Shown piece after piece: positions 533 through 61,436 of a DNA stretch of 64,000 bases. The notes beneath the pieces were generated by a model. That model was not told where the DNA came from. It did no database searches and worked only from the letters and a program-made list of their open reading frames with translations. Numbering within the stretch: position 1 is the stretch's first letter; every line of letters starts with the position of its first letter. The stretch is from Candidatus Poribacteria bacterium (GTDB lineage: Bacteria; Poribacteria; WGA-4E; PCPOR2b): assembly GCA_003635265.1 (NCBI GenBank), contig PYIZ01000038.1:24986-88985 (forward strand). The letters are read 5' to 3'. Position numbers and translations under genes: made by a program.

Positions 533-614
533 TACCGGGTGGGATTGAATTGGGTTTGGACGCTGTTGCATAATTTCTTAAATTGTGGATACGAAGGAGG
601 CTAAGGATTTCGTT

Positions 615-2078
615 ATGCCTACACCTCGACACGACACCCTGTGCTTGCGGCTCATCTTTATCTTAATCCTGCTGATAGGGTTTTGCGTCAGTGGGTGCGG
701 CGATTCGGAGGAAGCTGAAGCTCTCACTGAGGAAGCGGCAGAACCGCTTGTTGTCACAATACTCGATAGCTGGTCTGACAGACCTGCCGTACCCACTCGG
801 TCAGATGCCGAGATTCTGGCGGATAGAATCTTGGAGCGTGAAACAGAGGGTTTCTACTTTGACATCACCCGACGGAACCAGCTCGTCGGTGAGATAGAGG
901 AGGTACTGTCGCTCATTCGCGCGGCGTACCTGCCGATGGGTGAGATTCATGCCAGAGCGTGGTCTGAGCCGGGAATGCTCTGGATCCGTCTGGAGCGAGA
1001 TTTCTCTGAGATACTTAAGGAGCTGATTGAAGATAAGCAGGGGCAAATCCGTTTCGAGACCGGCAATGCTGACTTTGACGCGCTCAACGCAAAGTTGGGG
1101 CTGCAAAACGTCATATTGAGCTGGGACCTCTTCCTTTATTTTGACCGACATCTCAACTTGCGGACGGCAATTGAGGCGTATTCAAAGGTGGAAGGGGTTC
1201 GGCAGGTCTTGCGTAATCCTGCTGTCGGAGATAGTAACGATATTGATGCGTTCAAGCAGGGGGCGACTTGGTATGTTATCTTTCGTAACGGCTGGGGCGA
1301 TTGTCCCTCCGGTTGTATCTATCGTGAACTCTTCTGCTTTACGGTGATGGGTACAGCTGTCGAGCGGATCCCGACTGCACAGGCACAAACGATGCCGCCA
1401 TTCCAAGGGCTTGTGCCCGAAGGAGACTGGGAGCGTCATAATGCGACTCCTTTTGTCAATGCGACTGCCCACAGCTGGTCGTGGCGGGATAGTCGTATTT
1501 CAGATCGTAGTGCCCGTAGTGCTGGCTATGATCTTGGGTGTTCGCTGTTTGGCGAGATTGAAGCGTTCCCGAATCTGCTTAGCGTCTCGTGTGGCTACCG
1601 TGTGGAGTCGTTGCCGCGAGAGGATACGTTCATCGATAATTATGATTTTACCGGCGTGGTTCTGTTGCTCGTAGCGACGCAGGAACGGATGGTGGTCGGC
1701 AACAGCGAAGCGCATTCAAGCGTCGTGGCTTCCAAAACCGTGCTAGCTGCTAAGACCGCAGCGGAGATTGAGCAGCCAGAAAATGTCTACTTTGAGAACG
1801 TCTTGATGCCTATCAACCCGCCGCCGCTTTCTTCGCCATTCGAGCGGTGGTGGGGTGGCGTACACCCCACTTTTGTTGTTTGCTGGGACCGCCCCCAAAC
1901 CGGTCTGCGTGCCTACCAGTTTATAGAGTCAGATATCAGGTACGCAGGCAGCGATGAGGTGAGGAATCACCCCGGCTGCGATAATTTCAGGGATACCGAT
2001 TACATGCAGACCCTTGATGTTTACTTGCCGCTCCTTGATATACGCGACGATATTGATGAGGTGCTGCCACGGCCCTGA
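615..2078 (+). CDS. lipoprotein, paralog 1 of a tandem triplet
   Basis: ORF with signal peptide and lipobox (LILLIGFCVSGCGD); RBS AAGGAGG before ATG 615; aligns along its length with the next two ORFs (e.g. ENVYFENVL, WWGGVHPTFVVCWD, DEVLPRP end). Confidence 0.85.
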   Translation: MPTPRHDTLCLRLIFILILLIGFCVSGCGDSEEAEALTEEAAEPLVVTILDSWSDRPAVPTRSDAEILADRILERETEGFYFDITRRNQLVGEIEEVLSLIRAAYLPMGEIHARAWSEPGMLWIRLERDFSEILKELIEDKQGQIRFETGNADFDALNAKLGLQNVILSWDLFLYFDRHLNLRTAIEAYSKVEGVRQVLRNPAVGDSNDIDAFKQGATWYVIFRNGWGDCPSGCIYRELFCFTVMGTAVERIPTAQAQTMPPFQGLVPEGDWERHNATPFVNATAHSWSWRDSRISDRSARSAGYDLGCSLFGEIEAFPNLLSVSCGYRVESLPREDTFIDNYDFTGVVLLLVATQERMVVGNSEAHSSVVASKTVLAAKTAAEIEQPENVYFENVLMPINPPPLSSPFERWWGGVHPTFVVCWDRPQTGLRAYQFIESDIRYAGSDEVRNHPGCDNFRDTDYMQTLDVYLPLLDIRDDIDEVLPRP

Positions 2079-2095
2079 AGCGGTGGAGTGAATGC

Positions 2096-2116
2096 GGTGC
2101 GGTAACAAACCGCACC
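2096..2116. repeat. GGTGCGGT/ACCGCACC hairpin, 5-nt loop
   Basis: Same arms and flanks as the copy at 3715 but with a loop 20 nt shorter. Confidence 0.85.
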
Positions 2117-2173
2117 TACCGGGCCTGGGGAATCGGTAGAATATTGGATACGAAGGAGGCTAAGGATTTCGTT

Positions 2174-3697
2174 ATGCCTACATCTCAACAGGACCCCCTG
2201 CGCTTGCCGCTCATCTCCATCTTAATCCTATTGATAGGATTTTGCATCAGTGGTTGTGGCGATTCGGAGGATGACGAAGGTCGAATTGATGAAGCGGCGG
2301 AACCGCTTGTTGTCACAATCATCAACAAGCGGTCTGACGGTCCTGCCGTACCCGCTCGCTCAGATGCCGAGATTCTGGCGGATAAAATCTTGCGGCATGA
2401 AATAGAGGCTTTCTTCTTCGACCTCCCGCAACGGAACCAACTCATCGTTGAGATAGAGCGGGGGCTGTCTCTGATTCGCGCGGCGTACCCGCCGATGAGT
2501 GAGATTCGTGCCGGAGAGGAGGTTATACCGGGAATGCTTGCGATCGATCTGGAGCCGGATTTATATGAAATAGTTAAGGAGATGCTCCAAGATAAGCAGG
2601 GGCAAATCCGTTTCGAGACCGGCAATGCTGAATTCGACGCGCTCAACGCAAAGTTGGGGCTGCAAAACGTCAGATTGGGGGCAGGCCTCACCTTTTATTT
2701 TCACCGGCATCTCAACTTGCGGGTGGCAAGTGAGGCGTATTCGATGGTGAAGGGGGTTGGGCACGTTTCCGATTATAGTGGCTATGATCTCGTAGTAAGT
2801 GCCGATATTAATGCGTTCAAGCAGGGGGCGACTTGGTATTTCATCTTTCTCAACGCATGGGGGGATTGTCCTGCCGGTTGTATCTATCACGAACTTTTCT
2901 GCTTTACCGTAACAGGGACAGATGTTGAAATAATCCCGACGGCACAGGCACAAACGATGCCGCCATTCCAAGAACTCGAGGCGACCCAAAGAGACCGGGG
3001 GCCTCATAATGCGACTCCCTTTGTTAATGCGACTCCCCTTGTCAATGCGACCGCCCACACCTGGTCGTGGTGGGATAATCATCGGAGTTGGGAGTATGGC
3101 GGTCGCCTTCCCACCGACGACAATCTTGGGTGCGCGCGCTTTGGCGAGATTGAAGCGTTCCCCAATCTACTGAGCGTCTCGTGTGGATATAGTGTGGAGG
3201 CGTTGCTGCGAGAGGCTGGGAGGTTCGATGATTATGATTTTACCGGCGTGGTTCTATTGCTCGTTGCGACGCAGGAACGGACGATAATCGGCGACGCCGA
3301 GGCGCGTTCAACCGTCGTGGCTTCCAAAACCGTGCTAGCTGCTAAGACCGCAGCGGAGATTCAGCACCCAGAGAATGTCTACTTTGAGAACGTCTTGATG
3401 GCTATCAACCCGCCACCGTCTCCTACCGGATTGGAGCGGTGGTGGGGTGGGGTACACCCTACTTTTGTTGTCTGCTGGGACCACACCGAAATTGATCTGC
3501 GCGCCTACCAGGTTTTAGAGCCAAATTTCAGACACGCAAGCAGATATGAGGCAAGCAATCAGCCAAACTGTGATAAAATCAGGGATACCGATTATATTCA
3601 GATCCTTGATGTTCCGTTTCGTGCTTCGTTCCCGTTCTTCGAGGCATACGGCGATGAGGTATACGACGATATTGATGAGGTGCTGCCGCGGCCCTGA
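2174..3697 (+). CDS. lipoprotein, paralog 2 of tandem triplet
   Basis: Lipobox LIGFCISGCGD; same conserved blocks and same C-terminus DIDEVLPRP as paralog 1. Confidence 0.85.
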   Translation: MPTSQQDPLRLPLISILILLIGFCISGCGDSEDDEGRIDEAAEPLVVTIINKRSDGPAVPARSDAEILADKILRHEIEAFFFDLPQRNQLIVEIERGLSLIRAAYPPMSEIRAGEEVIPGMLAIDLEPDLYEIVKEMLQDKQGQIRFETGNAEFDALNAKLGLQNVRLGAGLTFYFHRHLNLRVASEAYSMVKGVGHVSDYSGYDLVVSADINAFKQGATWYFIFLNAWGDCPAGCIYHELFCFTVTGTDVEIIPTAQAQTMPPFQELEATQRDRGPHNATPFVNATPLVNATAHTWSWWDNHRSWEYGGRLPTDDNLGCARFGEIEAFPNLLSVSCGYSVEALLREAGRFDDYDFTGVVLLLVATQERTIIGDAEARSTVVASKTVLAAKTAAEIQHPENVYFENVLMAINPPPSPTGLERWWGGVHPTFVVCWDHTEIDLRAYQVLEPNFRHASRYEASNQPNCDKIRDTDYIQILDVPFRASFPFFEAYGDEVYDDIDEVLPRP

Positions 3698-3714
3698 AGC
3701 GGTGGAGTGAATGC

Positions 3715-3755
3715 GGTGCGGTCCGATTCTCGTGACCAGGGTTACAAACCGCACC
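3715..3755. repeat. GGTGCGGT/ACCGCACC hairpin, 25-nt loop
   Basis: Same arms; loop CCGATTCTCGTGACCAGGGTTACAA. Confidence 0.85.
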
Positions 3756-3803
3756 TACCGGGCCTGGGGAATCGGTAGAATATTGGATACGAAGGATAGC
3801 GCG

Positions 3804-5243
3804 ATGTTTACCCCTCCAAATAATATCTTGTCTTTGCCGGTCATCTTAATCCTATTGATAGGCTTGAGTATCAATGGTTGTGGCGATTCGGAGGAGGCTG
3901 AGGTTCTCATTGAAGAAGCGGCAGAACCGCTTGTTGTTACAGCCATCAACGGGCGGCCCTCCCCAACCAAGCGTTCGGATGCTGAGATTCTAGCGGATAG
4001 AATCTTGGAACGTGAAACAGCGGATTTCTTCTTCGACATCGCCCAACGGAACCACCTCGTCGTTGAGATAGAGGGGGTGCTGTCGCTCATTCGCGCGGCT
4101 TACCCGCTGATGGGTGAGATTCATGCCGAAGAGAAGGCTATACCGGGAATGCTCTGGATCCATCTGGAACCGGATTTCTATGAGAGACTTAAGGAGATGC
4201 CCCAAGATAAGCAAGAGTCGTTCCATTTCGAGACCGGCAACGCTGAATTCGACGCGCTCAACGCAAAGTTGGGGCTGCAAAACGTCAGATGGACCTCATG
4301 GGGCCTCTTCTTGTATTTTGACCCACGTCTCAACTTCAGGGTGGCAATTGAGGCGTATTCAAAGGTGGCAGGGGTTCGGGAGGTCTGGCGTCATCCCCCC
4401 GTCGAAGTAAGTGCCGATATTAAGGCGTTCAAGCAGGGTGTGACTTGGTATTTCATCTTTCGGAACGGCTGGGGCGATTGTGCCGCCGGTTGTCTCTATC
4501 AGGAATCGTTCTGCTTTACGGTGACGGGGGCGGATGTCGAAAGTATCCCGACGGCACAGGCACAAACGATGCCGCCATTCCAAGCACTTGATGCGACCCA
4601 CAGACTATGGTCGCTTCGTAATAATACTCCCGTTGTCAATGCGCCTGCCCACACATGGTCGTGGTGGGATAATCGGCGCCCTAGTGCCGACTACAATCTT
4701 GGGTGTTCGTTCTTTGGTGAGATTGAAGTCTTCCCCAATCAACTCCGCGTCTCATGCGGATATAGCGTGGAGGAGCTGCCGCACGAGGATAGGTTTTTTG
4801 AAAATTATGAATTTACCGGCGTGGTCTTAGTGTTGAGCGCTATGCAGGAACGGACGGTGGTCGGCAACCCTGAAGCGTATTCAACCGTCGCGGTTTCCAA
4901 AGTCGTGGGACCCGCTAAGACCGCAGCGGAGATTCAGCACCCAGAGAATGTCTACTTTGAGAACGTCTTGATCCCTATCAACCCGCCACCGCTTTCTTCG
5001 CCGTTCGAGCGGTGGTGGGGCGGGGTAATACCCACTTTTGTTGTCTGCTGGGACAACCCCCAAAGCGGTCGGCGCATCTACCAGGATTTAGTGATAAATA
5101 TCATACACGCAGGCAGCGATGAGGCGAGGAATCAGCCCGGCTGTGGTAATTTCAGAGATACCGATTACATTCAGACCCTTGGTGCTTTGTTTGGCAGGCT
5201 TCATGGAGACAAAGGGATTGATGAGGTGCTGCCGCGTCCCTGA
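3804..5243 (+). CDS. lipoprotein, paralog 3 of tandem triplet
   Basis: Lipobox LIGLSINGCGD; the longer ORF start at 3711 lies inside a hairpin repeat, so ATG 3804 is preferred. Confidence 0.83.
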   Translation: MFTPPNNILSLPVILILLIGLSINGCGDSEEAEVLIEEAAEPLVVTAINGRPSPTKRSDAEILADRILERETADFFFDIAQRNHLVVEIEGVLSLIRAAYPLMGEIHAEEKAIPGMLWIHLEPDFYERLKEMPQDKQESFHFETGNAEFDALNAKLGLQNVRWTSWGLFLYFDPRLNFRVAIEAYSKVAGVREVWRHPPVEVSADIKAFKQGVTWYFIFRNGWGDCAAGCLYQESFCFTVTGADVESIPTAQAQTMPPFQALDATHRLWSLRNNTPVVNAPAHTWSWWDNRRPSADYNLGCSFFGEIEVFPNQLRVSCGYSVEELPHEDRFFENYEFTGVVLVLSAMQERTVVGNPEAYSTVAVSKVVGPAKTAAEIQHPENVYFENVLIPINPPPLSSPFERWWGGVIPTFVVCWDNPQSGRRIYQDLVINIIHAGSDEARNQPGCGNFRDTDYIQTLGALFGRLHGDKGIDEVLPRP

Positions 5244-5420
5244 AGCGGAAGATTAACCTGAAGCACTAGTTGGTTAGGGGATCGAAATGAAGGAGGGGAG
5301 TGGCTGGACTTGGCGCTGCCCACTTTTTCTGTGGCAACGAATTTCTTTCTATGAATCCCAATGGTGTGCTAAAATGCTTGCGTCCTATGACCTAACAGGG
5401 GTGAGGAGAGGTGAACAACC

Positions 5421-10179: not shown

Positions 10180-10326
10180 GGCGTGAAACGTGATGCGTAA
10201 TGCATAAGTTGGTTCATTAGTACATTGGTTTGTTAATGAACGAGTGAGCTAATGAACCAATGTACTAAACTGACCCACCTATATTTCGATTCTACCCACT
10301 TCCTAACTAATCTCTCCCCGTACTTA

Positions 10327-18264: not shown

Positions 18265-18414
18265 CCTATGATTTCCTTTCAATTTATTGGCCCAACCTTT
18301 AGTTGGACGACGGGCGGGGTGACCCCGCCCCTACGATTGGGTGGGCGTGGGAATCCGTAGGGGTTGGGTTTCCCAACCCGTTGGATGTCGTGCCGTAATG
18401 TGCACAAAGGTTAC

Positions 18415-20603: not shown

Positions 20604-21431
20604 TTATTGCTGGAGCGTCAACATTGCGGCGAGGTCTGCTGGTAGTTTCACGCCATTTCTCCGCTCAAAGTCCGAGACGCTCGCGTATTCGTTACGAAAC
20701 CCGTCGCTGATATCTACCCCCATCCTTACAGCAGCGGTTAGGTTTGATTGGGCGTTCTCCCATTCTCCGAGGTGTAACCACGCTTCGGCACGATTATAAT
20801 AGGCTTCGGCAAAATCGGGTTTAAGTTCTATCGCTTTAGTGTAGTCTACGATAGCACGGTCATAATCCCCTTTTTTGTAGTGAGCCACCCCGCGATTGTT
20901 ATAGGATTGGGGGTCGTTGGGATTCAGGGTTATCGCATTGGTATAGTCTATGATGGCACGGTCATAATTCCCTATGTTCGCGTAAGCACCCCCACGGTTC
21001 CCGTAAGCCTCTCCAAGATCAGGTTTGAACGCTATTGCTTTGCTCAAGTCTTCGATAGCACGGTCATAATCCCCTCTGCGCTCGTAAGCACCGCCACGAT
21101 TGTTATACGCCATGGCGAGGTCAGGGTTCAATTCTATCGCTCTAGTGCAATCTTCGAGGGCGCGGTCGTAATCCCCTTTGTCGCGGTAAGCACCACCACG
21201 GTTGCTATAAGCCATAGCAAGGTTAGGGTTCAACTCTATCGCATTGGTAAACGCTTCAACCGCAAGCTCATAATCTCCTTTGTTCGCGTAAGCAACACCG
21301 CGATTGTTATGGAGGACGGCTTCGCGTCGTTTGTGGCGCGCCTCCGGTCCCCGATGGGTTTCGTCGAGATTTGAAGCGTTTTCCTGCGTATGCGCTTGAC
21401 AGTCAAGTTTCACGTCTTTTGTTCTACTCAC
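20604..21431 (-). CDS. TPR repeat protein
   Basis: Six or more 34-aa units (YNNRGGAYxxxGDYDRAIEDxxKAIELNPD). Confidence 0.92.
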   Translation of the reverse strand: MSRTKDVKLDCQAHTQENASNLDETHRGPEARHKRREAVLHNNRGVAYANKGDYELAVEAFTNAIELNPNLAMAYSNRGGAYRDKGDYDRALEDCTRAIELNPDLAMAYNNRGGAYERRGDYDRAIEDLSKAIAFKPDLGEAYGNRGGAYANIGNYDRAIIDYTNAITLNPNDPQSYNNRGVAHYKKGDYDRAIVDYTKAIELKPDFAEAYYNRAEAWLHLGEWENAQSNLTAAVRMGVDISDGFRNEYASVSDFERRNGVKLPADLAAMLTLQQ

Positions 21432-25151: not shown

Positions 25152-25237
25152 CAGTATTCCCTCCCAAATTTGTTCATTAGTGCATGAATTCACTAGTTCA
25201 TTAATGAACCAATGTACCAATCAACTAATGAACTAAC

Positions 25238-26455
25238 TCAAATCTCGTCGGGGGTGTGACCAAACGCTTCACGATAGTCGTCGTGGACCATACCCTCATA
25301 CTTGGTGATCTCCGTTATCGGGAGATCAATAGGCGTCATCCCCGAAAGCGACGATTCATATAGCGCGATACACATCTCCACATCTTTCCGTCCACCGATC
25401 CCGTATTCTGGCTCGCGGTCATATAGCGCCGCGTTGGCGATGCTCATGATTTCTTCAGCGGTCCCGACGTTCCAATCGTCTATCGCATATTCTCTGAACG
25501 GATTCTCGTAGACAATCTGCGGATCGGTATGGACGACTATCTTTGAGAGGACATCGACCCCATCGACGGTATGGCGTTCCCTCTCGATTGGGATATCCGT
25601 CATCTCGCCGTCCACCATCGCACGGAGTGGGAAATCGGAGGTCCAGTAATTAGCGTTCGTCATTACCCCTTTTGTTCCCATAACTTGGTTGTACCGGATC
25701 GTTTCCTCGCCGACCTGCGACGCCTCGTAGACACCGACCGCACCGCTTTCAAACTCGATCAGCGCGTGTCCCCAATCTTCGTACACCCTCTCGGTGTTCG
25801 GGACGAACTGCTTGGTGATTCCCGCTATCCGTTTCGGCTCGCTCTGGGCATAAAGCCGAAGCTGAGACATCCGATGCACGCCCATGTCGATACAGACACC
25901 GGAGTGGGAGCCAAACGTCGAGACAGGGCGAGCAATCCCTTGCGGCTTCGCCCCGTGCACAAACTGTCTGCCTCGCCCAGACGGTTCGATAAAGTGGACG
26001 CGCATGATGTCACCGAGCACCCCTTCAGTAATCAGTTTGATGAGGATCCGATCGTTCGGCATCCGGAAATAGTTCTCGGCAACCTCGAAGTGGACGCCGT
26101 TTTTCTTGCAGGAGTTGATGATCACATCGCAGAAGGCTAGCGTGGGCGCCATCGGTTTTTCGACGATCGGGTGCATCTTATGTTCCGCCACAATCTTCGC
26201 CACCGTATGATGCTCGTAATCGCCGGCGCAGACATCTACGACATCGATATCCTTGTGTTTCTCCAGCATCTCCTCGACATCGGTATAATACGGCAGACCG
26301 TACTCTTTCCCGGTCTCGCTCGCCTTCGTTTCGTCGAGATCGCACACCGCGATGAAATTCAGATCTCCTTTTTTTGTCAACTCAGCGATAGTCGGCAGAT
26401 GCCAGCGTTGTGCCACCGCGCCCAAACCGACCGATGCAATGTTAGCTTTGCGCAT
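25238..26455 (-). CDS. Gfo/Idh/MocA family oxidoreductase
   Basis: ASVGLGAVAQRWHLPTI Rossmann start, HPIVEKPMAPTLAFCD. Confidence 0.92.
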   Translation of the reverse strand: MRKANIASVGLGAVAQRWHLPTIAELTKKGDLNFIAVCDLDETKASETGKEYGLPYYTDVEEMLEKHKDIDVVDVCAGDYEHHTVAKIVAEHKMHPIVEKPMAPTLAFCDVIINSCKKNGVHFEVAENYFRMPNDRILIKLITEGVLGDIMRVHFIEPSGRGRQFVHGAKPQGIARPVSTFGSHSGVCIDMGVHRMSQLRLYAQSEPKRIAGITKQFVPNTERVYEDWGHALIEFESGAVGVYEASQVGEETIRYNQVMGTKGVMTNANYWTSDFPLRAMVDGEMTDIPIERERHTVDGVDVLSKIVVHTDPQIVYENPFREYAIDDWNVGTAEEIMSIANAALYDREPEYGIGGRKDVEMCIALYESSLSGMTPIDLPITEITKYEGMVHDDYREAFGHTPDEI

Positions 26456-26644
26456 AAGCCAATCTCCTTAATGAAAGAAGGCAAAAAATCGTGTTCTTTA
26501 TGATAACTCAAGTTGCCACATGTCGCCCCGCTGGGGCTTTGGGGTTTGTTGATTCAATGTTCTGAGTTTGGACATTCAATTGACTTGCTTTTCAAATTGT
26601 GCTATCATAGAAGCATGTCAAATCACTGAAAAGAAAGATTCATC

Positions 26645-40231: not shown

Positions 40232-40350
40232 GAGTTCGAGGGCACCTGCAAGTGTTTGCAGCCCGCCTGTCCCGATTTATCGGGGAGTTGTCCCTACTGA
40301 AGAAAGCGGTTGATGTGCTGCTATAATATCCTCAAAGGAGTAGATGTTTC

Positions 40351-44715: not shown

Positions 44716-45495
44716 ATGATTACGAAACGAATTATTCCATGCCTCGACGTTCGAGCGGGCAAGGTCACAAAAGGAGTTGCTTTCCAAGGCAATATTGATG
44801 TCGGCGATCCGGTGGCGATGGCGCGTGCGTACTATGAAGGTGGGGTGGACGAGCTTGTGTTTTACGACATCACCGCTAGCAACGAGAGACGCGACATTAT
44901 GATTGATGTCGTTTCAGCAGTCGCGGCAGAGATCTTCATCCCCTTCTCGGTGGGCGGTGGACTACGAACGTTGGATGATATGCGCCGGGTGCTCCTCGCG
45001 GGAGCGGAAAAGGTGAGTATCGACTCCGGCGCAGTGAGAAATCCACAACTCCTCGCGGAGGGCGCAAAAGCGTTTGGTAGTCAGTGTGTCGTGCTAAGTA
45101 TGCAGGTCAAGAGGGTCCCGAAGAGTGATGAAATCCCAAGCGGATTTGAGATCTACATTGACGGTGGTCGTCGTCCGATGGGGTTAGATGCCCTCCAGTG
45201 GGCGCAACGCGGTGTGGAATTAGGGGCGGGTGAAATCGTGGTCAACAGTATCGACCAAGATGGAACGAAAGCGGGGTATGACATCGAACTGACAGGAGCA
45301 ATTGCGGCACTCGTTCCCGTGCCTGTCATTGCGTCTGGCGGGGCTGGCAATCCGCAACATATCCGCGATGTCTTTGTCGCAAGCAACGCCGACGCCGCCA
45401 TTGTCGCTTCAATCACCCATTACGGTGAGTTCTCGATTGAGCATATCAAGCAATATCTTGAGAAAGAAGGGGTCCCGACCCGCAATACATGGTAG
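44716..45495 (+). CDS. hisF: imidazole glycerol phosphate synthase subunit HisF
   Basis: [54 protein letters not shown]. Confidence 0.97.
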
Positions 45496-45531
45496 TACAT
45501 TGGTTGATTGGTTCATTAGTTCACTAGTTCA

Positions 45532-47169
45532 TTAATGTACTAATGAACTACTCTGCCGGAATGTCGGTGCTCTTACACTTTCGATGGCTACGTTGATGCA
45601 CGCAGGCAATCCCGACTCCAGTGCCCGCTCAACCGCCGGGGTGAGATCGCACGGAGGCTCGACAAACTCGCCATGCCCTCCCAGCGCTTCAATCATCTTG
45701 TCGTACCGTGACGGCAACAACTCACAACCGACCGTGCGCTCTTCCCCATAATTTTGAATCTGCAACTGATGCTCTGCATTCCAACGCGCGTCGTTCCCAA
45801 CAATGGCAACGATAGGCAGATTGTAGCGTAACGCGGTATCAAACTCCATTGCATGGTAGCCGAATGTGCCATCGCCCAAGAAAACGAGGACGGGTCGTTG
45901 CGGATGGGCTAGTTTTGCCGCAAGTCCCAACGGAACAGAACTACCGATTGAGCCTGCCGGACCATTGATAAGGCGATGTTCCGCTTCCAACCCCGCCTGT
46001 ACCCACTGCCCAAACTCCCCACCATCACTGACAAATACCGCACCATCATCAAGGAATGGCTGCAGTGCCTCACACACACGCAATGGATGAATAGGTCGAT
46101 CCGCAGTGTTACGTATCTGCTCCCATTCAGGAGGGGTAGCCCTTCGTGCTGCCATCACCTCTGCTCGCCAAGAGCCACACTGTCCTTCCCTTTGCGAGTC
46201 TTCAAGGGTTTGTGCTGCGGTCGTCAACTGACGCACTATTCCCGTCGGTTCGGCGTGTATCGTCAGAACAACTCGGCTTTCTGTGCGTAGCTGCGACGCA
46301 TCGGCATCGATCTGGATGAAGCGGCATCCTTCAGAAAAAAAAGGTGGCTGTCCGAACCGTAGCGAGAAGTCTAATTTCTTACCCACCAACAACACGAGGT
46401 CTGCTTTGCTCAAGCAATTTGTCGCCTGATGCAGCCACGGATCGTTGACCCCACGCGGACTTTCCATCGGGAGGGCGGGAATACCCGTTGCTTCGGATAG
46501 CTGCTCCACTTCCACCCATCGCAAGGGACGTCCCATAGCGGGACCCGCCAAGATGAGTGGGTGCTTTGCTTCGGTCAGTTGGCGGAGTATATCGTCCACG
46601 TCGCTTGTTGGAGGGATACCTGTGGATGTATTATCTTTATCCGCTCCATGAAGGGGTTGGGGAGAGACGATAGCTTCTAAGACATCGGAGGGTAGACTCA
46701 GGTGAACTGGCCCGGGGCGTCCTTCGCACGCCAGAGAGAGGGCGGTAGCGATTGCCTCGTCCAAGTGGTCGGTGTCTTCCACCAGCCATGCTGCTTTTGT
46801 AACCGGCTCGGTGGTAGCGACCTGATCTATCTCCTGAAATGCGCCGCTGCCGATTTGGGCGTGAGGAGCATGTCCGCTTAATAGGACCACCGGCGATTCT
46901 GCCATCAATGCCCCATATAGCGCGGAGATAGCGTTGCAGTGACCGGGTCCCGCGGTCAGCAGTGCGACACCCGGCTGCTCGGTCAAGCGTCCCCAGCCAT
47001 CTGCCATGTGCACCGCTGCTGCTTCGTGGCGTGTGTGGATAAGATTAATATCGCGCCCGATGCTCGCATCATATAGGGAAAGGATCTGGTTGCCAGAGAG
47101 CGAGAAGAGATGCTTAACTCCCGCAGCAATCAAGGAATCTATCAGCAGTTCTGCACCGGTTTTTGACAT
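45532..47169 (-). CDS. thiamine pyrophosphate-dependent enzyme (acetolactate synthase large-subunit-like)
   Basis: SKTGAELLIDSLIAAGVKHLF, HEAAAVHMADGWGRLTEQPGVALLTAGPG, FLGDGTFGYHAMEFDTALRYNLPIVAIVGND. Confidence 0.92.
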   Translation of the reverse strand: MSKTGAELLIDSLIAAGVKHLFSLSGNQILSLYDASIGRDINLIHTRHEAAAVHMADGWGRLTEQPGVALLTAGPGHCNAISALYGALMAESPVVLLSGHAPHAQIGSGAFQEIDQVATTEPVTKAAWLVEDTDHLDEAIATALSLACEGRPGPVHLSLPSDVLEAIVSPQPLHGADKDNTSTGIPPTSDVDDILRQLTEAKHPLILAGPAMGRPLRWVEVEQLSEATGIPALPMESPRGVNDPWLHQATNCLSKADLVLLVGKKLDFSLRFGQPPFFSEGCRFIQIDADASQLRTESRVVLTIHAEPTGIVRQLTTAAQTLEDSQREGQCGSWRAEVMAARRATPPEWEQIRNTADRPIHPLRVCEALQPFLDDGAVFVSDGGEFGQWVQAGLEAEHRLINGPAGSIGSSVPLGLAAKLAHPQRPVLVFLGDGTFGYHAMEFDTALRYNLPIVAIVGNDARWNAEHQLQIQNYGEERTVGCELLPSRYDKMIEALGGHGEFVEPPCDLTPAVERALESGLPACINVAIESVRAPTFRQSSSLVH

Positions 47170-50947: not shown

Positions 50948-51466
50948 TCAAATCCTTGCATCAATTTTTGGTGGAGGTGTCACGAGTTTGACGGTTTTCT
51001 GGTCATTTAGGTTGGAGAGCAGGGTTCGGATATTTTCTTGAAGGACTGGATGAAGGACCTCCGGAGCGATCTCGGCGAATGGGACAAGGACAAAACTGCG
51101 CTGGTGCATTTCGGGGTGCGGTACGATAAGATTCGGTGTATTGATGCAACACTGGTCGTAGATTAGCAGATCCAAATCTACCTCTCGTGGTCCCCAACGT
51201 GCTCGATGCTTTCGTCCAACTGCCCGCTCAATTTCCTTCAGCAACGCCAACAACCGATGGATCAGCAAATCAGTTTCGACAGCGATGACACCGTTCAGAA
51301 ACCAATCCTGTTTCTCATAGCCGACGGGTTCGGTTTCGTAGAGGGAAGAGATCTGTATCAGCGAGACGCTATCTGCTTCTAACAGCAGCCGTAACGCTTG
51401 AGTGATATAATTGAAGCGGTCGTCGATGTTCGATCCAAAACCGATGTATGCGTGTGCCATATTCAA
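50948..51466 (-). CDS. folK: 2-amino-4-hydroxy-6-hydroxymethyldihydropteridine diphosphokinase
   Basis: AYIGFGSNIDDRFNYI, SSLYETEPVGYEKQDWFLN, RWGPREVDLDLLIYD, PHPEMHQRSFVLVPFAEIAP. Confidence 0.95.
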   Translation of the reverse strand: MNMAHAYIGFGSNIDDRFNYITQALRLLLEADSVSLIQISSLYETEPVGYEKQDWFLNGVIAVETDLLIHRLLALLKEIERAVGRKHRARWGPREVDLDLLIYDQCCINTPNLIVPHPEMHQRSFVLVPFAEIAPEVLHPVLQENIRTLLSNLNDQKTVKLVTPPPKIDARI

Positions 51467-51649
51467 GAGTTCATTTGTGCATTAGTTCATTGGTTCATTA
51501 ATAGTAAAACGTGATGCGTCAGAAGAATAAGGAAAATAATCATGTCAAAATAGCCGAGTGTATTACCTGTTGAATGTGCGTTTGCGATTACACTAGGTAT
51601 ATTCAGTTTCACCGTTTCTGTTCGGCAAGCTATAGGAGAAGTTAACAGT

Positions 51650-53931: not shown

Positions 53932-54034
53932 TTCTGTCCCTAATACTGGAAGGCGATCAAATTAGAGGTTAATTACACAGAGTTTTGCTGCTGTTTGATG
54001 TGTTGATAATAAAGTCGTTCTCTTATTGAAAACA

Positions 54035-54337
54035 CAAGTTGCTAGACAATCTATAAGTCGAGTTTTTCACACCCGCTCCCTATTAGAAATAACCAAATAG
54101 ACGACACACATGTCGCCCCTCTGGGGCTTGGAGGGTGGGTCCTATCGTCGGCTATAGACATGTCGCCCCTCTGGGGCTTTAAGACTTGGATTAGACATCC
54201 TCTACGACACACGTTGCGCTCTGCCCCAATGAATCCCCGATAAATCTCCGATAAATCGGAACAGGCGGGACTGGGGAGGCCCAACCTACGGGTATAGGGG
54301 GTTGGTTTCTATCGTGCCGCACACCACTAGCAACTTG
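54035..54337. mobile_element. candidate MITE-like element with CAAGTTGCTAG/CTAGCAACTTG inverted ends
   Basis: 11-bp perfect inverted ends, two ACATGTCGCCCCTCTGGGGCTT hairpins inside. Confidence 0.5.
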
Positions 54338-54384
54338 CGTTATTATAACCTATTTTCTGACCAAGTGCGTCAATCCTACAGTTT

Positions 54385-54804
54385 TTAGATAGGTTGTAGT
54401 AACTCTGTGTGTTGTCCGAGTTCAGTAGATATTGACTCATAGATAACTCGTGCTTGTTCAACAGCCGCATTTGCTTCTGCGCCTGTAGCTTCCGTCCAGT
54501 TCCCTGGATAGCGGGCTTCAACCGCCCATTGGGTTAAGCTAGCCAAGTCCGGACACATTTCTTTGAATTGCCAGCCATCGGGCACCAGATTGCGTAGGAC
54601 GTCTAGGTCATGGGTTCGTGGAAAATCAATCTGTAGAAAGACTAATACTGCCTTTAATGCTTTTTCGGCAGCCTGTTGAGCAAACCAGCAGACATGACGT
54701 GGGACAATATGTGGCTGTCTTAACAAAGTTTCAGCTGTTGTCAAATCTTCTTCGGCATAACGCAACCAGCGATCTGTTTCTGCAAGTTGCTCAGTTGCGT
54801 TCAT
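54385..54804 (-). CDS. HEPN domain protein
   Basis: WLRYAEEDLTTAETLL, VCWFAQQAAEKALKAVLVFLQIDFPRTHDLDVL. Confidence 0.9.
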   Translation of the reverse strand: MNATEQLAETDRWLRYAEEDLTTAETLLRQPHIVPRHVCWFAQQAAEKALKAVLVFLQIDFPRTHDLDVLRNLVPDGWQFKEMCPDLASLTQWAVEARYPGNWTEATGAEANAAVEQARVIYESISTELGQHTELLQPI

Positions 54805-55105
54805 AAAGTATTTCCCCTTCTCGTTGGGCGGCACGTAGGATTGTGCCCACCTGATCGCGCTGACGTACTAATTCTTCAGGTGTTGCTACGAGAATATCTT
54901 TAGCCATGGGTAGGTCAGCAAGGGCACGTCGGATGTCAACGGCAGTTTTCCGTTTATCAGCGAGTTCGGAGAAGACTACAAGCAGATCTATATCGCTTTG
55001 CGGGTGGGCCTCGCCGCGGGCATGTGAACCGAAGAGGATAATCTGCATGGGGTGAAAGTCGCGCACGATGCGTTCTGTCATGGTTGAGATGATTTCGTTA
55101 TTCAT
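54791..55105 (-). CDS. MNT-type nucleotidyltransferase
   Basis: IILFGSHARGEAHPQSDIDLLVVF; overlaps the HEPN gene start. Confidence 0.93.
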   Translation of the reverse strand: MNNEIISTMTERIVRDFHPMQIILFGSHARGEAHPQSDIDLLVVFSELADKRKTAVDIRRALADLPMAKDILVATPEELVRQRDQVGTILRAAQREGEILYERN

Positions 55106-55273
55106 TTGTTCGATCCTTTCCATTTTCACGCTGATACGGCGCGGGGTCACAAAAATGAGAGATCTAATTTATTGTCTTTGACGTTCATCCGCCTCAAGGG
55201 GTGGATCAAATTTTAACGGAACGGGCAATAAATTGCCCTACTACAAACGAAGCTACGGTGATCTGATGGTCTA

Positions 55274-56914
55274 CTAGTCTTCAATCGACAATCGAACCGG
55301 CAGTTTGCCTTGAGCTGCCTGTGCCCCGACAATCACATCGACAGCTGCGGACACGGAAGCGTCATGGGTATCGTAAGCAGCGAGGGACACTGAGACAGCG
55401 GGGCAGTCCCGGAGCGTGTAAGGTGAACCGAGCGCAATCACAATAATGGGAGTTTTAGTCTCTAAACTAATCCGTTGGACGAGTGCTGCCTGTTCATCGT
55501 TTATGATTCCGGCAATAACCGCATCGGCGTTTTCTGCTTGCAAGATCAGTTGTGGCAGGATACCTTCCACCTCCGATTTCTCTGGGATTCGCGCCTCAAC
55601 CGTGTTCGGGTGATGCGCTTTGAAGCTCTCGAATAAGCTCAATGATTTACTCAGAATTAGGACGGAGGTTTCCGGCTTTAATTTTAAGGGTAGAAGGTTA
55701 TCTCGATTCTTTACCACTGTAATTGCCTGCGATGCGATTGTTTGGGCGAGTTGCTGATGTGCATCTGTCCCGACAGTCCCTCCCACCGCATCGAGATCAA
55801 CAAAACGCTGGTTGAACGCTGCCGCTTTGTTTTTTAGGATGCGCTTGACAGACTGGTCTAACCGGGCTTGGGAGATGCGCCCACTTTTGACCGCGGATAG
55901 CAGTGCATCAAAGACCTCAATCTGCTTTGTGGGGGACCAGAGCACCATCACGATGTCCGCCCCGGCTTCAACCGTCATAACCGCAGCTTCGCCCGATCGG
56001 TAGCGGTCATCAATCGCTTTCATTTCCATGTCATCGGTAATGATTAAGCCGTCAAAGCCGAGTTCCTTTCGCAAGAGATCTGTTAGGATAGTCGGCGAGA
56101 GCGTGGCAGGTCGGTCGGCGTCAAAGGCGGGATAGACGATATGCGCTGTCATGATTGCAGCGACATCGGCATCAATCGCGGCGCGAAAGGGGTGCAGCTC
56201 AAGGGCGTGGATACGCTCTCGGTCATGGTTCACCGTTGGTAGGTCGAAGTGGGAGTCAACGGTGGTGTCTCCGTGTCCGGGGAAATGCTTTGCGGTCCCC
56301 AAAATGCCGTTGTCCTGTAACCCGTGGATGTAAGCAACACCCAAGCGGGAAACGAGTTCTGCCGATTCACCGAAGGAACGGCGATCAATAACGGGATTTT
56401 GTGGATTGTTGTTGACATCCATGACCGGCGCGAAGTTGAGGTTGACCCCCACCGCGGCGAGTTCGACGGCGGTGACTTCTCCGGCGCGCTCCGCCAACTC
56501 GGTCGAATCGGTCGCGCCCAACGCCATATTGCCGGGCAGCACCGTCGCACCTTCCTTTAAGCGGATGACCCAACCGCCCTCTTGATCTATTCCAATGAAC
56601 AGCGGAATCTGACGCGCTGTTGCGCTCGCCAATCGCTGGAGTTCGTTTGTTAGTTCCGCTGTCTGCTGTGGGGATTGGATATTCCGACTAAAGAGGACAA
56701 CCCCACCGACAAACCGCTCACGGATATGGGTTTCGATGGTTTCGTTGGGTTGTGTCCCCTCGAAACCGACCATGATAAGCTGTCCGACCTTTTCCTCGAT
56801 TGTCATTTCGGTTATCATTGTGTCAATTTCCGGATCGGTGAGGGCGAAAGTTTGGGAAGATATCACCCCGATCAGCAGTGCGACAGACAGGTATAAGAGC
56901 AGCGCGTCGTGCAT
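55274..56914 (-). CDS. nagZ: glycoside hydrolase family 3 beta-N-acetylhexosaminidase
   Basis: FIGIDQEGGWVIRLKEGATVLPGNMALGA, AKHFPGHGDTTVDSHFDLP, GFDGLIITDDMEMKAI. Confidence 0.93.
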   Translation of the reverse strand: MHDALLLYLSVALLIGVISSQTFALTDPEIDTMITEMTIEEKVGQLIMVGFEGTQPNETIETHIRERFVGGVVLFSRNIQSPQQTAELTNELQRLASATARQIPLFIGIDQEGGWVIRLKEGATVLPGNMALGATDSTELAERAGEVTAVELAAVGVNLNFAPVMDVNNNPQNPVIDRRSFGESAELVSRLGVAYIHGLQDNGILGTAKHFPGHGDTTVDSHFDLPTVNHDRERIHALELHPFRAAIDADVAAIMTAHIVYPAFDADRPATLSPTILTDLLRKELGFDGLIITDDMEMKAIDDRYRSGEAAVMTVEAGADIVMVLWSPTKQIEVFDALLSAVKSGRISQARLDQSVKRILKNKAAAFNQRFVDLDAVGGTVGTDAHQQLAQTIASQAITVVKNRDNLLPLKLKPETSVLILSKSLSLFESFKAHHPNTVEARIPEKSEVEGILPQLILQAENADAVIAGIINDEQAALVQRISLETKTPIIVIALGSPYTLRDCPAVSVSLAAYDTHDASVSAAVDVIVGAQAAQGKLPVRLSIED

Positions 56915-57026
56915 TGTGTTTGGTTCATTAGTTCATTGGTTCACTAGTTCATTGAACCGTTTTTTCGTCATCGCATTAAGATATGCTTGACGTATCACGT
57001 TTCACGCAAGCACATATCGCCCCGCT

Positions 57027-57052
57027 CCGATAAATCGGGATTCAAAGCAACT
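57027..57052. repeat. CCGATAAATCGGG-type repeat nested inside a CGCCCCGCT/GGGGCT hairpin
   Basis: CCGATAAATCGGGATTCAAAGCAACT between GCCCCGCT and GGGGCT; uninterrupted hairpin nearby at 57089-57110. Confidence 0.8.
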
Positions 57053-57338
57053 GGGGCTTAGGTGTTGGGCGGTTCGCTGTTTCTATAAACATGTCGCCCC
57101 GCTGGGGCTAAAGAGCCTGTCTATAGACATGTCGGTCCGCTGGAGCGAAGGATAACAGTGCTTGACCTTAATCGCGAACGGTTGGTTCTTTTAACACTAG
57201 CGACTTGCGTTATATCAAGAAATAGTGCGAAGAAATCGAGTTTTCAAGTCCCGATTATCGGGATGCTCCCCGATAGATCGAGGCAAGCTGAGTCGGCAAA
57301 AAAACTCGGTTTCTGTGAGCGGGGAGGCACTGATAACG

Positions 57339-58082
57339 CTACGAGTCGTCTTCGTCATCTTTAGCGGCGTATGATTGACCCGCGAAGGCAGCGCGGACGT
57401 CCGCTGCGGTTTTCGCAGTTTTCAGCGCATTAATTCGCGTCTCTTCTTCCTGCAATAACGCCTTAACGTTGGTCAGAACCGCTTCCGCCTTATCGGCTGG
57501 AAACTTGCACGCACCATTTTCATCCATGTGGATAAGCTCACCCGGAGAGACATCCATCCCGCCCACCGAAACCGGCACGTTGACCGCCTGTACAGCCATA
57601 TCGCCGTGTCCGGGCGTGATGCCACTGAGCATATACTGAAATTTCATGGGACGAATTTCATCGATGTCTCGTGACGGACCGTTGGATATGGCACCGACAC
57701 AACCGACGGCTTTCATCGCAGCAGTCATGTTTCCGCCCGCTAGTCCCGCTTTAGCGTGGAGTTCGGGCGGCCATTTTTGCTGGAAAACCAGAATTGTCGG
57801 TTTCCCCGATGCGTCGAGTGCATCAATGACATCCATAAAGGTTAAACGTGAGTAATTCGGGTCGGGCAATCCATACACGCATGTTACAGCGTATCCGACG
57901 AGTGGACCTAATTCGGGATACATACAACGGATGGATTGGTCGGTATACCAGTTCTCCGTCCAAGGGTTATAAAGCCCAAGACAGAGGGGGTTTTTGGGGT
58001 AGGTGGCAACAACGTTGGTGATTGATGGTGTGTCGTAGTTTCGCAATTCTTCTAAAATTTCTGATTCTGTCAATTTTGCCAT
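57339..58082 (-). CDS. RraA-like family protein
   Basis: GGNMTAAMKAVGCVGAISNGPSRDIDEIR, GELIHMDENGACKFP. Confidence 0.88.
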   Translation of the reverse strand: MAKLTESEILEELRNYDTPSITNVVATYPKNPLCLGLYNPWTENWYTDQSIRCMYPELGPLVGYAVTCVYGLPDPNYSRLTFMDVIDALDASGKPTILVFQQKWPPELHAKAGLAGGNMTAAMKAVGCVGAISNGPSRDIDEIRPMKFQYMLSGITPGHGDMAVQAVNVPVSVGGMDVSPGELIHMDENGACKFPADKAEAVLTNVKALLQEEETRINALKTAKTAADVRAAFAGQSYAAKDDEDDS

Positions 58083-58341
58083 AAGTTACCTCTTCGTAAG
58101 TACACTGTCTGGCAGATGAGGAGGGAGCCGACAGTTAGTACTTGTGAAAATCGTTACGCATCGGCTAGATAATAAATGATAGTGAATTAAAAAAATACAT
58201 TAACACGTCTTCTGTAGGGGGCGTACCCCCCGAATCGCGACTGAATGTCCGCTAGTCGGGAATTGGAATTCCCTCCTACAACCCAATAATGTCAAGTTAA
58301 TTGTAAAATCCACCATAAACGCAAACAGTGAAATATGTTCG

Positions 58342-58758
58342 CTACGGATTCGGCGGTGAGGTACAGATGAGAACCTCCATCGTCTCGTTTCCTGTGTTCT
58401 CAATGCCGTGTTCGCACCATGGCGGCAGATGGATAAAGGTGCCTTCCTCCACATCAATTTTCTCGCCGGCAAGTGTCATGACGCCTTTTCCACGTATAAC
58501 AACGTAGCACTCTTCGGTGTGGTGGCTGCCCGGTTCTAGCACAACGTGCGGGGGAATATAGAACATCACCAATCCAAGATTCTGAGCGGGCGCCTTGGGA
58601 TTGGCGGGGTGGACGATACGCACACCAATTCCTTCGCAGTCGGGATATTTCACCGGCACACCGTCTTGTGCTCTGACAACATTGGGGAGTACCTTTTCTC
58701 TCGGCTTGGGAAATGGTGGCTCGCCTTGGTAACCTTTGAACATAGTAATCTTTGCCAT
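58342..58758 (-). CDS. cupin domain protein
   Basis: LEPGSHHTEECYVVIRGKGVMTLAGEKIDVEEGTFIHLPPWCEHGIENTG. Confidence 0.92.
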   Translation of the reverse strand: MAKITMFKGYQGEPPFPKPREKVLPNVVRAQDGVPVKYPDCEGIGVRIVHPANPKAPAQNLGLVMFYIPPHVVLEPGSHHTEECYVVIRGKGVMTLAGEKIDVEEGTFIHLPPWCEHGIENTGNETMEVLICTSPPNP

Positions 58759-58895
58759 TGTTATTACCTCACTTGTTGGTTCATTAGTTCAGTGGTTCAT
58801 TGGTTCATCAAACCAATAAATCCTATACTTAGTAATAAAACGTAAAACGTGATGCGTAAGAAGAATAATTCGTAAGCTATGCACATTGCGCTCCT

Positions 58896-58923
58896 CCCCG
58901 ATAAATCGGGATCCAAAGCAACT
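58896..58923. repeat. CCCCGATAAATCGGG-type repeat nested inside a GCTCCT/GGAGC hairpin
   Basis: CCCCGATAAATCGGGATCCAAAGCAACT between GCTCCT and GGAGC; related uninterrupted copy ACTCCTCTGGAGC at about 58962-58975. Confidence 0.8.
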
Positions 58924-59084
58924 GGAGCGTAGGATTGCCCCATCATTGTTCTATAGACATATCACTCCTCTGGAGCGAAAGACACGTCAACTTCGATAGA
59001 AAACCGATGGATCTTCAACGTCTAGCAACTTGGGGTATGATAGCATAAATCTTCTATTCCGATCAATGTTAAGATAACACTCGC

Positions 59085-59453
59085 TCAACCTCTGATTGCC
59101 ACCCACAAGAGACAGCCCCAACCGATGATAAAGGCAACTCCGCCGATCGGTGTTATTGCACCGAGCCAGCGGACACCGGTTAGTGATAGGATATAGAGGC
59201 TGCCCGAAAAAATAACGATGCCCGCCACGAATAACCACCCAGAGGCGGTGATCAGTTGGCTACTCCACTGCGACGCAGCCCAAGCGCCGGCGATCAGGCC
59301 CAGCGCATGATACATCTGATAGCGCACTGCAACCTCAAAGACTTGGAACATATCTGGTGATAGTCGTGTTTTCAGGGCATGGGCAGCAAAGGCACCTGTT
59401 ATCACAGCGATCAGTGCAAAACCAGAACCGAACGCAAAGAAAAGGCGTGACAT
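59085..59453 (-). CDS. DUF423 family membrane protein
   Basis: GAFAAHALKTRLSPDMFQVFEVAVRYQMYHALGLI, FSGSLYILSLTGVRWLGAITPIGGVAFIIGW. Confidence 0.92.
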   Translation of the reverse strand: MSRLFFAFGSGFALIAVITGAFAAHALKTRLSPDMFQVFEVAVRYQMYHALGLIAGAWAASQWSSQLITASGWLFVAGIVIFSGSLYILSLTGVRWLGAITPIGGVAFIIGWGCLLWVAIRG

Positions 59454-59572
59454 ATCTTCTCCTTCTCCAATTATCAATCATAGGGACACGATGAAACCCG
59501 CGTCTATACAAATATTCACAGAAGAACGCAGTCAGATTCAAACAAAAATCCTTCCCATTGTCTCAACAGCTT

Positions 59573-60439
59573 TCAAAACGGTGTGTTCGCTCCCGCCTCC
59601 GAACCTTCAGACGGTGTCTCTGAATCGGCGTATTCTGAATCAGCACCTTCCTCATTCAGTGTGAGAGGAGGTTCAGGACTTGCGGGGACCTCACTGGTTT
59701 GTGCGGCAGCCTCCAGTTGTTGGATACGCTCCACCAACTCCTTGAAAAGCTCTGGTGTGGAAGCACCAGCTTGTAATTCCGCAGAGAGTTGGGTCCACTG
59801 TAACTCGGTCATATCGTTACGGGATTCAACAGCGTAGCGACGTTTGACATAGTTCCAAAAATCGGACTTTGTGATACCCTGTTCTTCCAGTTTACCTTCC
59901 AGTTTGGTAGCCATTGAAAACGCTGCTTTCTGCGCGTTAGAAATCTGGCCCGTCGAAGCTGCGCTCGGTAAGCCCATCTGAGCCGTTTCACCCCCTGCTT
60001 GCCGATGGAGGTAGAAGTTCAGTACCTCCTTGATGACCGTGACGGGGAGTAGCTGTTTGACGGCGTTGCGCTGCGCTTTGTGGATCGCCTTCGTGAACGC
60101 ATGGGGATCCTCGCGATTGCCCATCCGTTTGGGCTGCTCGTACGCCCCGTAGCGTGATGAACCAGTTACGGTATCTGTCGCCTTGGCGGTAGCAAGCCAA
60201 GAATGTTCCCGTTCTTCGTACTGCACATCGTCAACCTGAATTCCGCCTCGACGATTTGCAGCTTCGTTTATCCCCGCAAGCGTTAATCCCTCAACCGTCT
60301 TCCCACCTTGCTTAAACGAGTAGACGTAATCTTGAATGGATTGCCCCGTCATCATTTCGACAATCGCTTGGTCATCGACCTGATCTAAGACCTCGTAGTC
60401 CGCGACAGGCACAAGCTCATTTTTCATATCTTCAGCCAT
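59573..60439 (-). CDS. hypothetical protein, possible ssDNA-annealing-like
   Basis: VEGLTLAGINEAANRRGGIQV, DTVTGSSRYGAYEQP, HAFTKAIHKAQRNAVKQLLPVTV. Confidence 0.6.
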   Translation of the reverse strand: MAEDMKNELVPVADYEVLDQVDDQAIVEMMTGQSIQDYVYSFKQGGKTVEGLTLAGINEAANRRGGIQVDDVQYEEREHSWLATAKATDTVTGSSRYGAYEQPKRMGNREDPHAFTKAIHKAQRNAVKQLLPVTVIKEVLNFYLHRQAGGETAQMGLPSAASTGQISNAQKAAFSMATKLEGKLEEQGITKSDFWNYVKRRYAVESRNDMTELQWTQLSAELQAGASTPELFKELVERIQQLEAAAQTSEVPASPEPPLTLNEEGADSEYADSETPSEGSEAGANTPF

Positions 60440-61323: not shown

Positions 61324-61436
61324 CTCGCCTCCTCTCCTTAGTTCATTAGTTCAAGAGTTCACTAGTTCATTAATGAACCCATGCACCAATACTATCAACA
61401 GTTGCAAACTCGCACCATTGGTTATGATTTCACTCC

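Follow-up and report, generated by a model that had tools for sequence, protein, structure and literature searches.

A hairpin in the window, the whole 64-kb stretch of DNA analysed here (G000:C38:24986-88985, from a Candidatus Poribacteria MAG), holds a second palindromic repeat in its tip and raises the question of whether the inner repeat was inserted there as a separate element. The sequence GCCCCGCT-CCGATAAATCGGGATTCAAAGCAACT-GGGGC was located at 57019-57057, exactly as an earlier note on this DNA had claimed, and the intact copy of the outer hairpin which that note placed downstream (ACATGTCGCCCCGCTGGGGCTAAAG) was found at 57089-57113, 38 bp from the interrupted site (site A, Table 1). 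The nested arrangement was also present at a second site that the earlier note had not listed (site B, 58890-58928), where the outer stem is altered in both arms relative to site A (GCTCC/GGAGC vs GCCCC/GGGGC), and a third nested copy was found on contig C52 of the window genome. We consider it very probable that these sites represent a REP-like hairpin, of the family that flanks IS200/IS605-type TnpA, with a separate 26-27 nt mobile element inserted at its tip. The genes around the nested sites are ordinary ones (a family 3 glycoside hydrolase, an RraA-like protein, a cupin and a DUF423 protein).

Table 1. Interrupted and uninterrupted copies of the outer repeat in the 64-kb window, with the inserted elements.
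Feature	Position in window	Strand	Basis
Site A, REP-like outer hairpin broken at tip: GCCCCAG / 26-nt insert / CGGGGC	57019..57057	-	Sequence and comparison with uninterrupted copies
Site A, inserted element TTGCTTTGAATCCCGATTTATCGGAG, 26 nt	57025..57050	-	Boundaries from filled/empty comparison and 181 copies
ACATATC, conserved 5' lead of outer repeat (consensus ACATGTC)	57012..57018	+	
Uninterrupted outer repeat ACATGTCGCCCCGCTGGGGC, unit 2 of pair	57089..57108	+	
Diverged third outer repeat ACATGTCGGTCCGCTGGAGC (family D14)	57127..57146	+	
Site B, second interrupted outer hairpin, stem GCTCC/GGAGC	58890..58928	-	
Site B, inserted element TTGCTTTGGATCCCGATTTATCGGGG, 26 nt	58896..58921	-	
Site B, uninterrupted partner ACATATCACTCCTCTGGAGC (family D14)	58957..58976	+	
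Uninterrupted outer-repeat pair ACATGTCGCCCCTCTGGGGC, 50-bp period	54108..54177	+	
Lone uninterrupted outer repeat	26518..26537	+	
Lone uninterrupted outer repeat, GTT loop	49011..49030	+	

The outer and inner repeats

Chance does not account for either of the two nested sequences: CCGATAAATCGG gave 10 matches with at most 1 mismatch vs 0.5 expected and GCCCCGCTGGGGC gave 6 vs 0.06 expected. The outer hairpin (ACATGTCGCCCCGCTGGGGC) is a dispersed repeat in its own right, and genome-wide GCCCCGCTGGGGC had 70 exact copies vs 0 for the reversed control. The commonest form was ACATGTCGCYCC-NNN-GGRGC, frequently arranged as two direct copies with a spacing of about 51 bp. Y1 transposase genes (approx. 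170-220 aa) lie between inverted pairs of the outer repeat in several genomes. The two Y1 genes of the window genome scored 76-78 bits against the IS200/IS605 model NF033573 (cut-off 55) and 30-32 bits against the REP-associated tyrosine transposase model NF047646 (cut-off 80). As they pass the first cut-off and fall below the second, we have named the outer hairpin a REP-like repeat of an IS200/IS605-type TnpA, a RAYT/REP status not being proven. One 8-kb region (G000:C6:1-8000; loci L001, L002, L132 and L137) held 15 exact outer-hairpin copies and two TnpA genes.

On the minus strand the inner element reads TTGCTTTGAATCCCGAT-NN(N)-ATCGGGG, that is TTGCTTTGAAT, a hairpin CCCGAT-NN(N)-ATCGGG and a final G, with a length of 26-27 nt, rarely 30, among 181 copies. 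At site A the element hairpin is CCCGAT/ATCGG with one arm mismatch. Across the six genomes of the genus, a 19-mer search allowing up to 2 mismatches returned 385 matches, vs 0 with the reversed control. Near-exact 17-mers numbered 39-81 per genome in the genus (n=6); three sister genera had 2-6 of them, and 0-1 were present in other members of the order. The complete genome G001 contained 119 copies with 2 mismatches allowed, and the copy number per genome was overall about 40-120. Named genomes searched with the element core yielded 56 stretches, all from Poribacteria but one; an exact match in a Chitinophagaceae MAG was without the hairpin arm and was taken as chance. Copies of the element have unrelated flanks and lie in several unrelated hairpins, nesting in the REP-like repeat and in others. 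The three palindromes that the earlier note had counted as independent inner copies (33817, 40271-40272 and 231-232) share only CCGATNNATCGG, lack the 5' half TTGCTTTGAAT and belong to other repeats; genuine independent copies of the whole unit occur elsewhere in the window genome.

The 6-bp hairpin of the element was paired in 91-98% of copies, depending on the position. Five compensatory cells were counted, vs a shuffle mean of 0.9 and a largest shuffle of 5, and one of the five was the false positive at L264. The 5' sequence of the element is TTGCTTTGAAT, the foot of the hairpin is GAAT, and no GTAG/GTGG or CGTC tag was found there. The element has no terminal inverted repeats, only one internal hairpin which lies at one side, with none at the other end.

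No Y1 gene was found consistently beside the element. The earlier note had suggested looking for a RAYT/TnpA-like transposase, and a Y1 transposase is indeed present; it is tied to the outer hairpin and showed no link to the inner element. A 219-aa Y1 gene at L142 (G004:C55, 1150-2100) lies between GTAG-tagged repeats, one of which bears a 26-nt element right after the GTAG, at the hairpin foot and not the tip. A RAYT-type gene linked to the element through this locus was considered and dropped, as the other Y1 loci are without the element.

Precise insertion and choice of target

Orthologous filled and empty sites differed by exactly 26, 27 or 30 nt with no target duplication, and in the outer repeat, copies with and without the element differed in length by exactly 26 nt, the junction being GCCCCAG^CGGGGC. 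At one locus common to two species, with flanks 94-98% identical, three neighbouring hairpins were empty, empty and filled in G003 and filled, filled and empty in G004, a reciprocal pattern that a single ancestral long form cannot produce. The inner element is mobile, and the suggestion in the earlier note that a separate repeat had been inserted into the hairpin is borne out by the precise filled and empty sites, the reciprocal hairpins and the many independent copies. Site A is common to the window genome and G004; in the G004 orthologue (L323, approx. 2500-2580, G004:C81) another palindrome interrupts the insert, so that three levels of nesting can be seen. The whole repeat pair of site B is missing from the other five genomes.

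At 106 non-coding, non-REP sites the four bases 5' of the element were C (.83), A (.72), A (.62) and G (.83), and the 5' tetranucleotide at coding sites was much the same. When the target ended in A the base after the arm was still G in 12/17 sites. The element goes in as a unit and always the same way round, immediately 3' of a CAAG-like tetranucleotide which is kept, and without target-site duplication.

The sites were also examined for hairpin tips. The flanking stem scored 7 or more at 24/117 non-redundant sites vs 6.5 in shuffled flank pairs, and at a score of 8 the figures were 15 vs 2.5. The enrichment held outside the REP-like repeat, where 14/104 sites lay in tips vs 2.2% at equal tetranucleotides in the same loci (p=1e-7), and for non-coding non-REP sites, with 9/57 vs 3.9% in the control (p=0.001). 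At scores of at least 9 the numbers and the excess were small and the non-coding excess was not significant. The hairpins targeted are unrelated in sequence (e.g. GGCGGGGCA/TGCCCCGCC, CCGAATTC/GAATTCGG, GGGCAACC/GGTTGCCC and GGCACG/CGTGCC). Tips are therefore preferred 4-6 fold over equal tetranucleotides elsewhere, yet they account for only about one fifth of the sites, the remaining copies lying in ordinary sequence after a CAAG-like tetranucleotide, many of them in genes. The rule of the earlier note, insertion at hairpin tips, accordingly holds as a preference and not as an exclusive target.

Several variant copies were seen. In G003 and G004 (L102, L108, L109 and L115) the outer repeat holds shorter forms of the element, with GTTTTGAAT, GTTTGGAAT or GTTTCGAAT ahead of its hairpin, and in these nested repeats the bases on either side of GTTT seem to co-vary. 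Eight copies of the element (L007, L038, L064, L073, L235, L281, L323 and L335) are opened by a sequence with a second palindrome; several of these inserts start with GCCTG and end with CCCGATNNATCGGG, and they may represent another mobile family of very small size that targets the first.

Copies inside protein genes

Long open frames held 49/181 copies, mostly of the 27-nt form, which add nine residues reading VALNPDxIG, PxxxRDSKQ or xPIxSGFKA by frame and strand. Empty orthologues were found for 5/6 genes tested. The gene for a P1-family peptidase was filled in G000 and empty in G005, in that for a halogenase-like flavoprotein the insert was present in G001 and absent from four others, and in those for a sialidase-like protein and a sulfatase the insert was likewise species-specific with empty orthologues. 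In one further gene G000 and G005 have an insert of 30 nt that three others lack. Alignment of the halogenase-like flavoprotein with solved structures of homologues placed a 9-residue gap at the insert, and for the peptidase and a penicillin-binding protein the gaps in solved homologues matched the insert roughly. L264 was rejected as a coding insertion, the sequence being native in all orthologues.

Our first frame test (27-nt copies in 40/49 open frames; Fisher p=3e-7) was biased by construction, because a 26-nt insert would break the open frame that was being required. In an unbiased test on empty-site frames the proportions were 41/93 for frame-keeping loop lengths vs 13/62 for frame-breaking ones (p=0.0035), and most of the 13 frame-breaking cases look like non-coding hairpin or repeat sites. 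The surviving gene copies are in frame. The element is thus a route by which proteins of Poribacteria acquire short inserts, and serves as a warning that some strain-specific nine-residue loops in these proteins are mobile DNA.

Related elements and possible mechanism

Compared by description, we judge the closest known kind to be the small dispersed repeats (SDR) of cyanobacteria, on the grounds of size, hairpin, precise target and nesting. In work attributed to Elhai et al. 2008 the SDR are said to be 21-27 nt long, with compensatory changes and nested insertions. Passages in PMC3116915, PMC4390886 and PMC2884548 cite these repeats, and a passage in PMC4390886 places SDR5 between bases 3 and 4 of HIP1. 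Like the SDR, the element measures in the twenties of nucleotides (about 20-30 nt), is dispersed in many copies, has a small hairpin, inserts precisely at a short target with filled and empty sites, and nests in other repeats. It is unlike them in being from Poribacteria, in using CAAG and hairpin tips, not HIP1, and in its in-frame gene insertions with orthologous empty sites.

Other palindromic repeats share some of these features. Rickettsia palindromic elements (RPE) and intragenic REPs are also palindromic and in frame in protein genes (PMC10969869, PMC3733652), but RPE are about 150 bp (PMC10969869; 100-150 bp was our criterion) vs 26-30 nt here, and intragenic REPs are single or paired and GTAG/CGTC-tagged (PMC3733652) whereas the element is without a tag. 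The element was not classed as a REP, as it has no tag, is not only extragenic (49/181 copies in open frames) and has no linked RAYT. REPs within palindromes are known from Thermomicrobium roseum (GTAG-23), Anabaena (GTAG-15) and Halothiobacillus (CGTC-1), with free copies of the target palindrome in T. roseum (PMC3733652). There too a palindromic repeat lies inside another palindrome, but what is inserted is a GTAG/CGTC-tagged REP or dimer and not one untagged hairpin that enters several unrelated hairpin families. The palindromic repeats of Volvox carteri organelles are likewise short and often inserted in one another, but these belong to organelle DNA, average about 50 nt and are not reported there in protein genes (PMC2670323). 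IS1397, ISKpn1, IS621 and other insertion sequences that target REP hairpins are full-size autonomous members of the IS3/IS110 families (PMC1525189), in contrast to an element of 26 nt. With IS200/IS605 and RAYT/REPIN systems the element shares one hairpin, a short flanking tetranucleotide that is kept and the lack of target duplication (PMC6006769, PMC3116915), but it is without a second end, a linked transposase or a GTAG foot. The same applies to an IS200/IS605-derived element of PATE type, since insertion is 3' of a fixed short sequence without duplication but the two end hairpins were not found, and a MITE of a DDE insertion sequence would have terminal inverted repeats and a target-site duplication which the element does not show. 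The combination of 26-27 nt, unrelated hairpin tips, CAAG, in-frame genes with empty orthologues and Poribacteria was not found in the literature consulted.

The loops of extruded hairpins are single-stranded. From this, the hairpin of the element, the conserved stretch before it and the flanking tetranucleotide we infer Y1 single-strand transposition, in which a Y1/HUH transposase supplied in trans would cut and join the element as single-stranded DNA, a proposal we put forward tentatively, as our best guess and at somewhat less than even confidence. The element hairpin would be the binding site and CAAG both the cleavage and the target site, assignments to which we attach the same reserve, and exposure of CAAG in a single-stranded loop would account for the preference for tips. 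Known Y1 transposases cut single-stranded DNA at a left-end tetranucleotide, which is selected by a guide immediately upstream of a small hairpin (PMC6006769). Against this mechanism, the element has one hairpin vs the two ends of IS200/IS605, and no linked Y1 gene. No guide-target covariation was seen between the tetranucleotide and element positions 4-8. In a look at replication-strand bias, element positions along the complete genome G001 were uneven, with a skew from the sampled loci too weak to place the origin or terminus. The interrupted hairpins may spread further as part of the outer repeat pair. Some nested copies may stem from gene conversion or from being carried along by the outer repeat, and conversion between REPs could account for a share of the nested copies in REPs. 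That the element stands for a new class of autonomous-looking 26-27 nt mobile DNA, directed to hairpin tips where a tetranucleotide is exposed in single-stranded form, moved by an undescribed single-strand activity and adding nine codons to proteins with each insertion, is more doubtful, though we take it as a serious prospect.

Spread through a short RNA copy that enters the DNA by reverse splicing or by target-primed reverse transcription has reportedly been proposed for the cyanobacterial SDR (Elhai et al. 2008), and here we regard it as rather unlikely and as the main rival to the Y1 route. The stable 3' hairpin, the lack of terminal inverted repeats and of target duplication and the single orientation relative to a short target would all suit an RNA route, but no direct sign of one (A-tail, 5' truncation) was seen, and Rfam gave no family match across window positions 54000-60000, around the nested copies. 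A single ancient nested insertion, later spread by REP gene conversion or by the TnpA of the outer pair with tips of no special importance, would explain the exact junction common to the nested copies, and it is in keeping with the presence of site A in G004 and with site B being a whole repeat pair absent from five other genomes. We nevertheless hold it improbable: the element is also in unrelated hairpins and at non-hairpin sites, conversion tracts would have to be very short to leave filled and empty hairpins in reciprocal order at a single locus, and the tip enrichment holds at non-REP sites, where this explanation is largely refuted.

Two further explanations dispense with movement. The strong conservation and dispersal of the 26-27 nt sequence could be those of a protein-binding site that recurs by selection, but the exact 27-nt presence and absence among orthologous genes refutes this for the tested loci, and the in-frame copies in unrelated proteins and the strict preference in the 5' tetranucleotide speak against it generally, so that we give it very little credence; a regulatory role may have been gained later. 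Long hairpins often suffer deletion between their arms, which lends something to the idea that the long form is ancestral and the short hairpin its deletion derivative. The earlier note had itself named an ancestral longer repeat as the case against insertion, and this is excluded by the independent inner copies and the filled and empty sites. In the window genome 80/81 repeat matches were of the short form, the inner unit is independent in hundreds of other places, and homologues, including solved structures, share the empty form of the genes; the chance that the long form came first is close to negligible.

The inserted element, from a little-studied phylum, is among the smallest mobile elements seen. 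It is a good case for learning how elements too small for a gene move, a question that dates from the description of small dispersed repeats. With exact junctions, filled and empty orthologous sites in six genomes, a defined tetranucleotide, a measurable tip preference and a recognisable nine-residue peptide, candidate machineries are testable with short oligonucleotides.

Other repeats were observed in the window. A GTAG-tagged hairpin family (GTTACGGCATACGGAGTATGCCTACTAC) occurs at 18410, 37539, 49114 and 60578, and hairpins related to it bear the element near the tip at L175, L189, L200, L216 and L232. Tandem octamer arrays of the type TTAGTTCATTGGTTCA lie at 10201-10269, 25161-25245, 45492-45560, 51458-51518, 56920-56966, 58768-58822 and 61330-61390, those at 56920-56966 and 58768-58822 being intergenic. 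Three direct repeats of about 1.58 kb each, 80-85% alike over most parts, lie within 581-5268, and at 20791-21300 a 102-bp unit is present in 5 tandem copies which are 64-71% alike and codon-phased.
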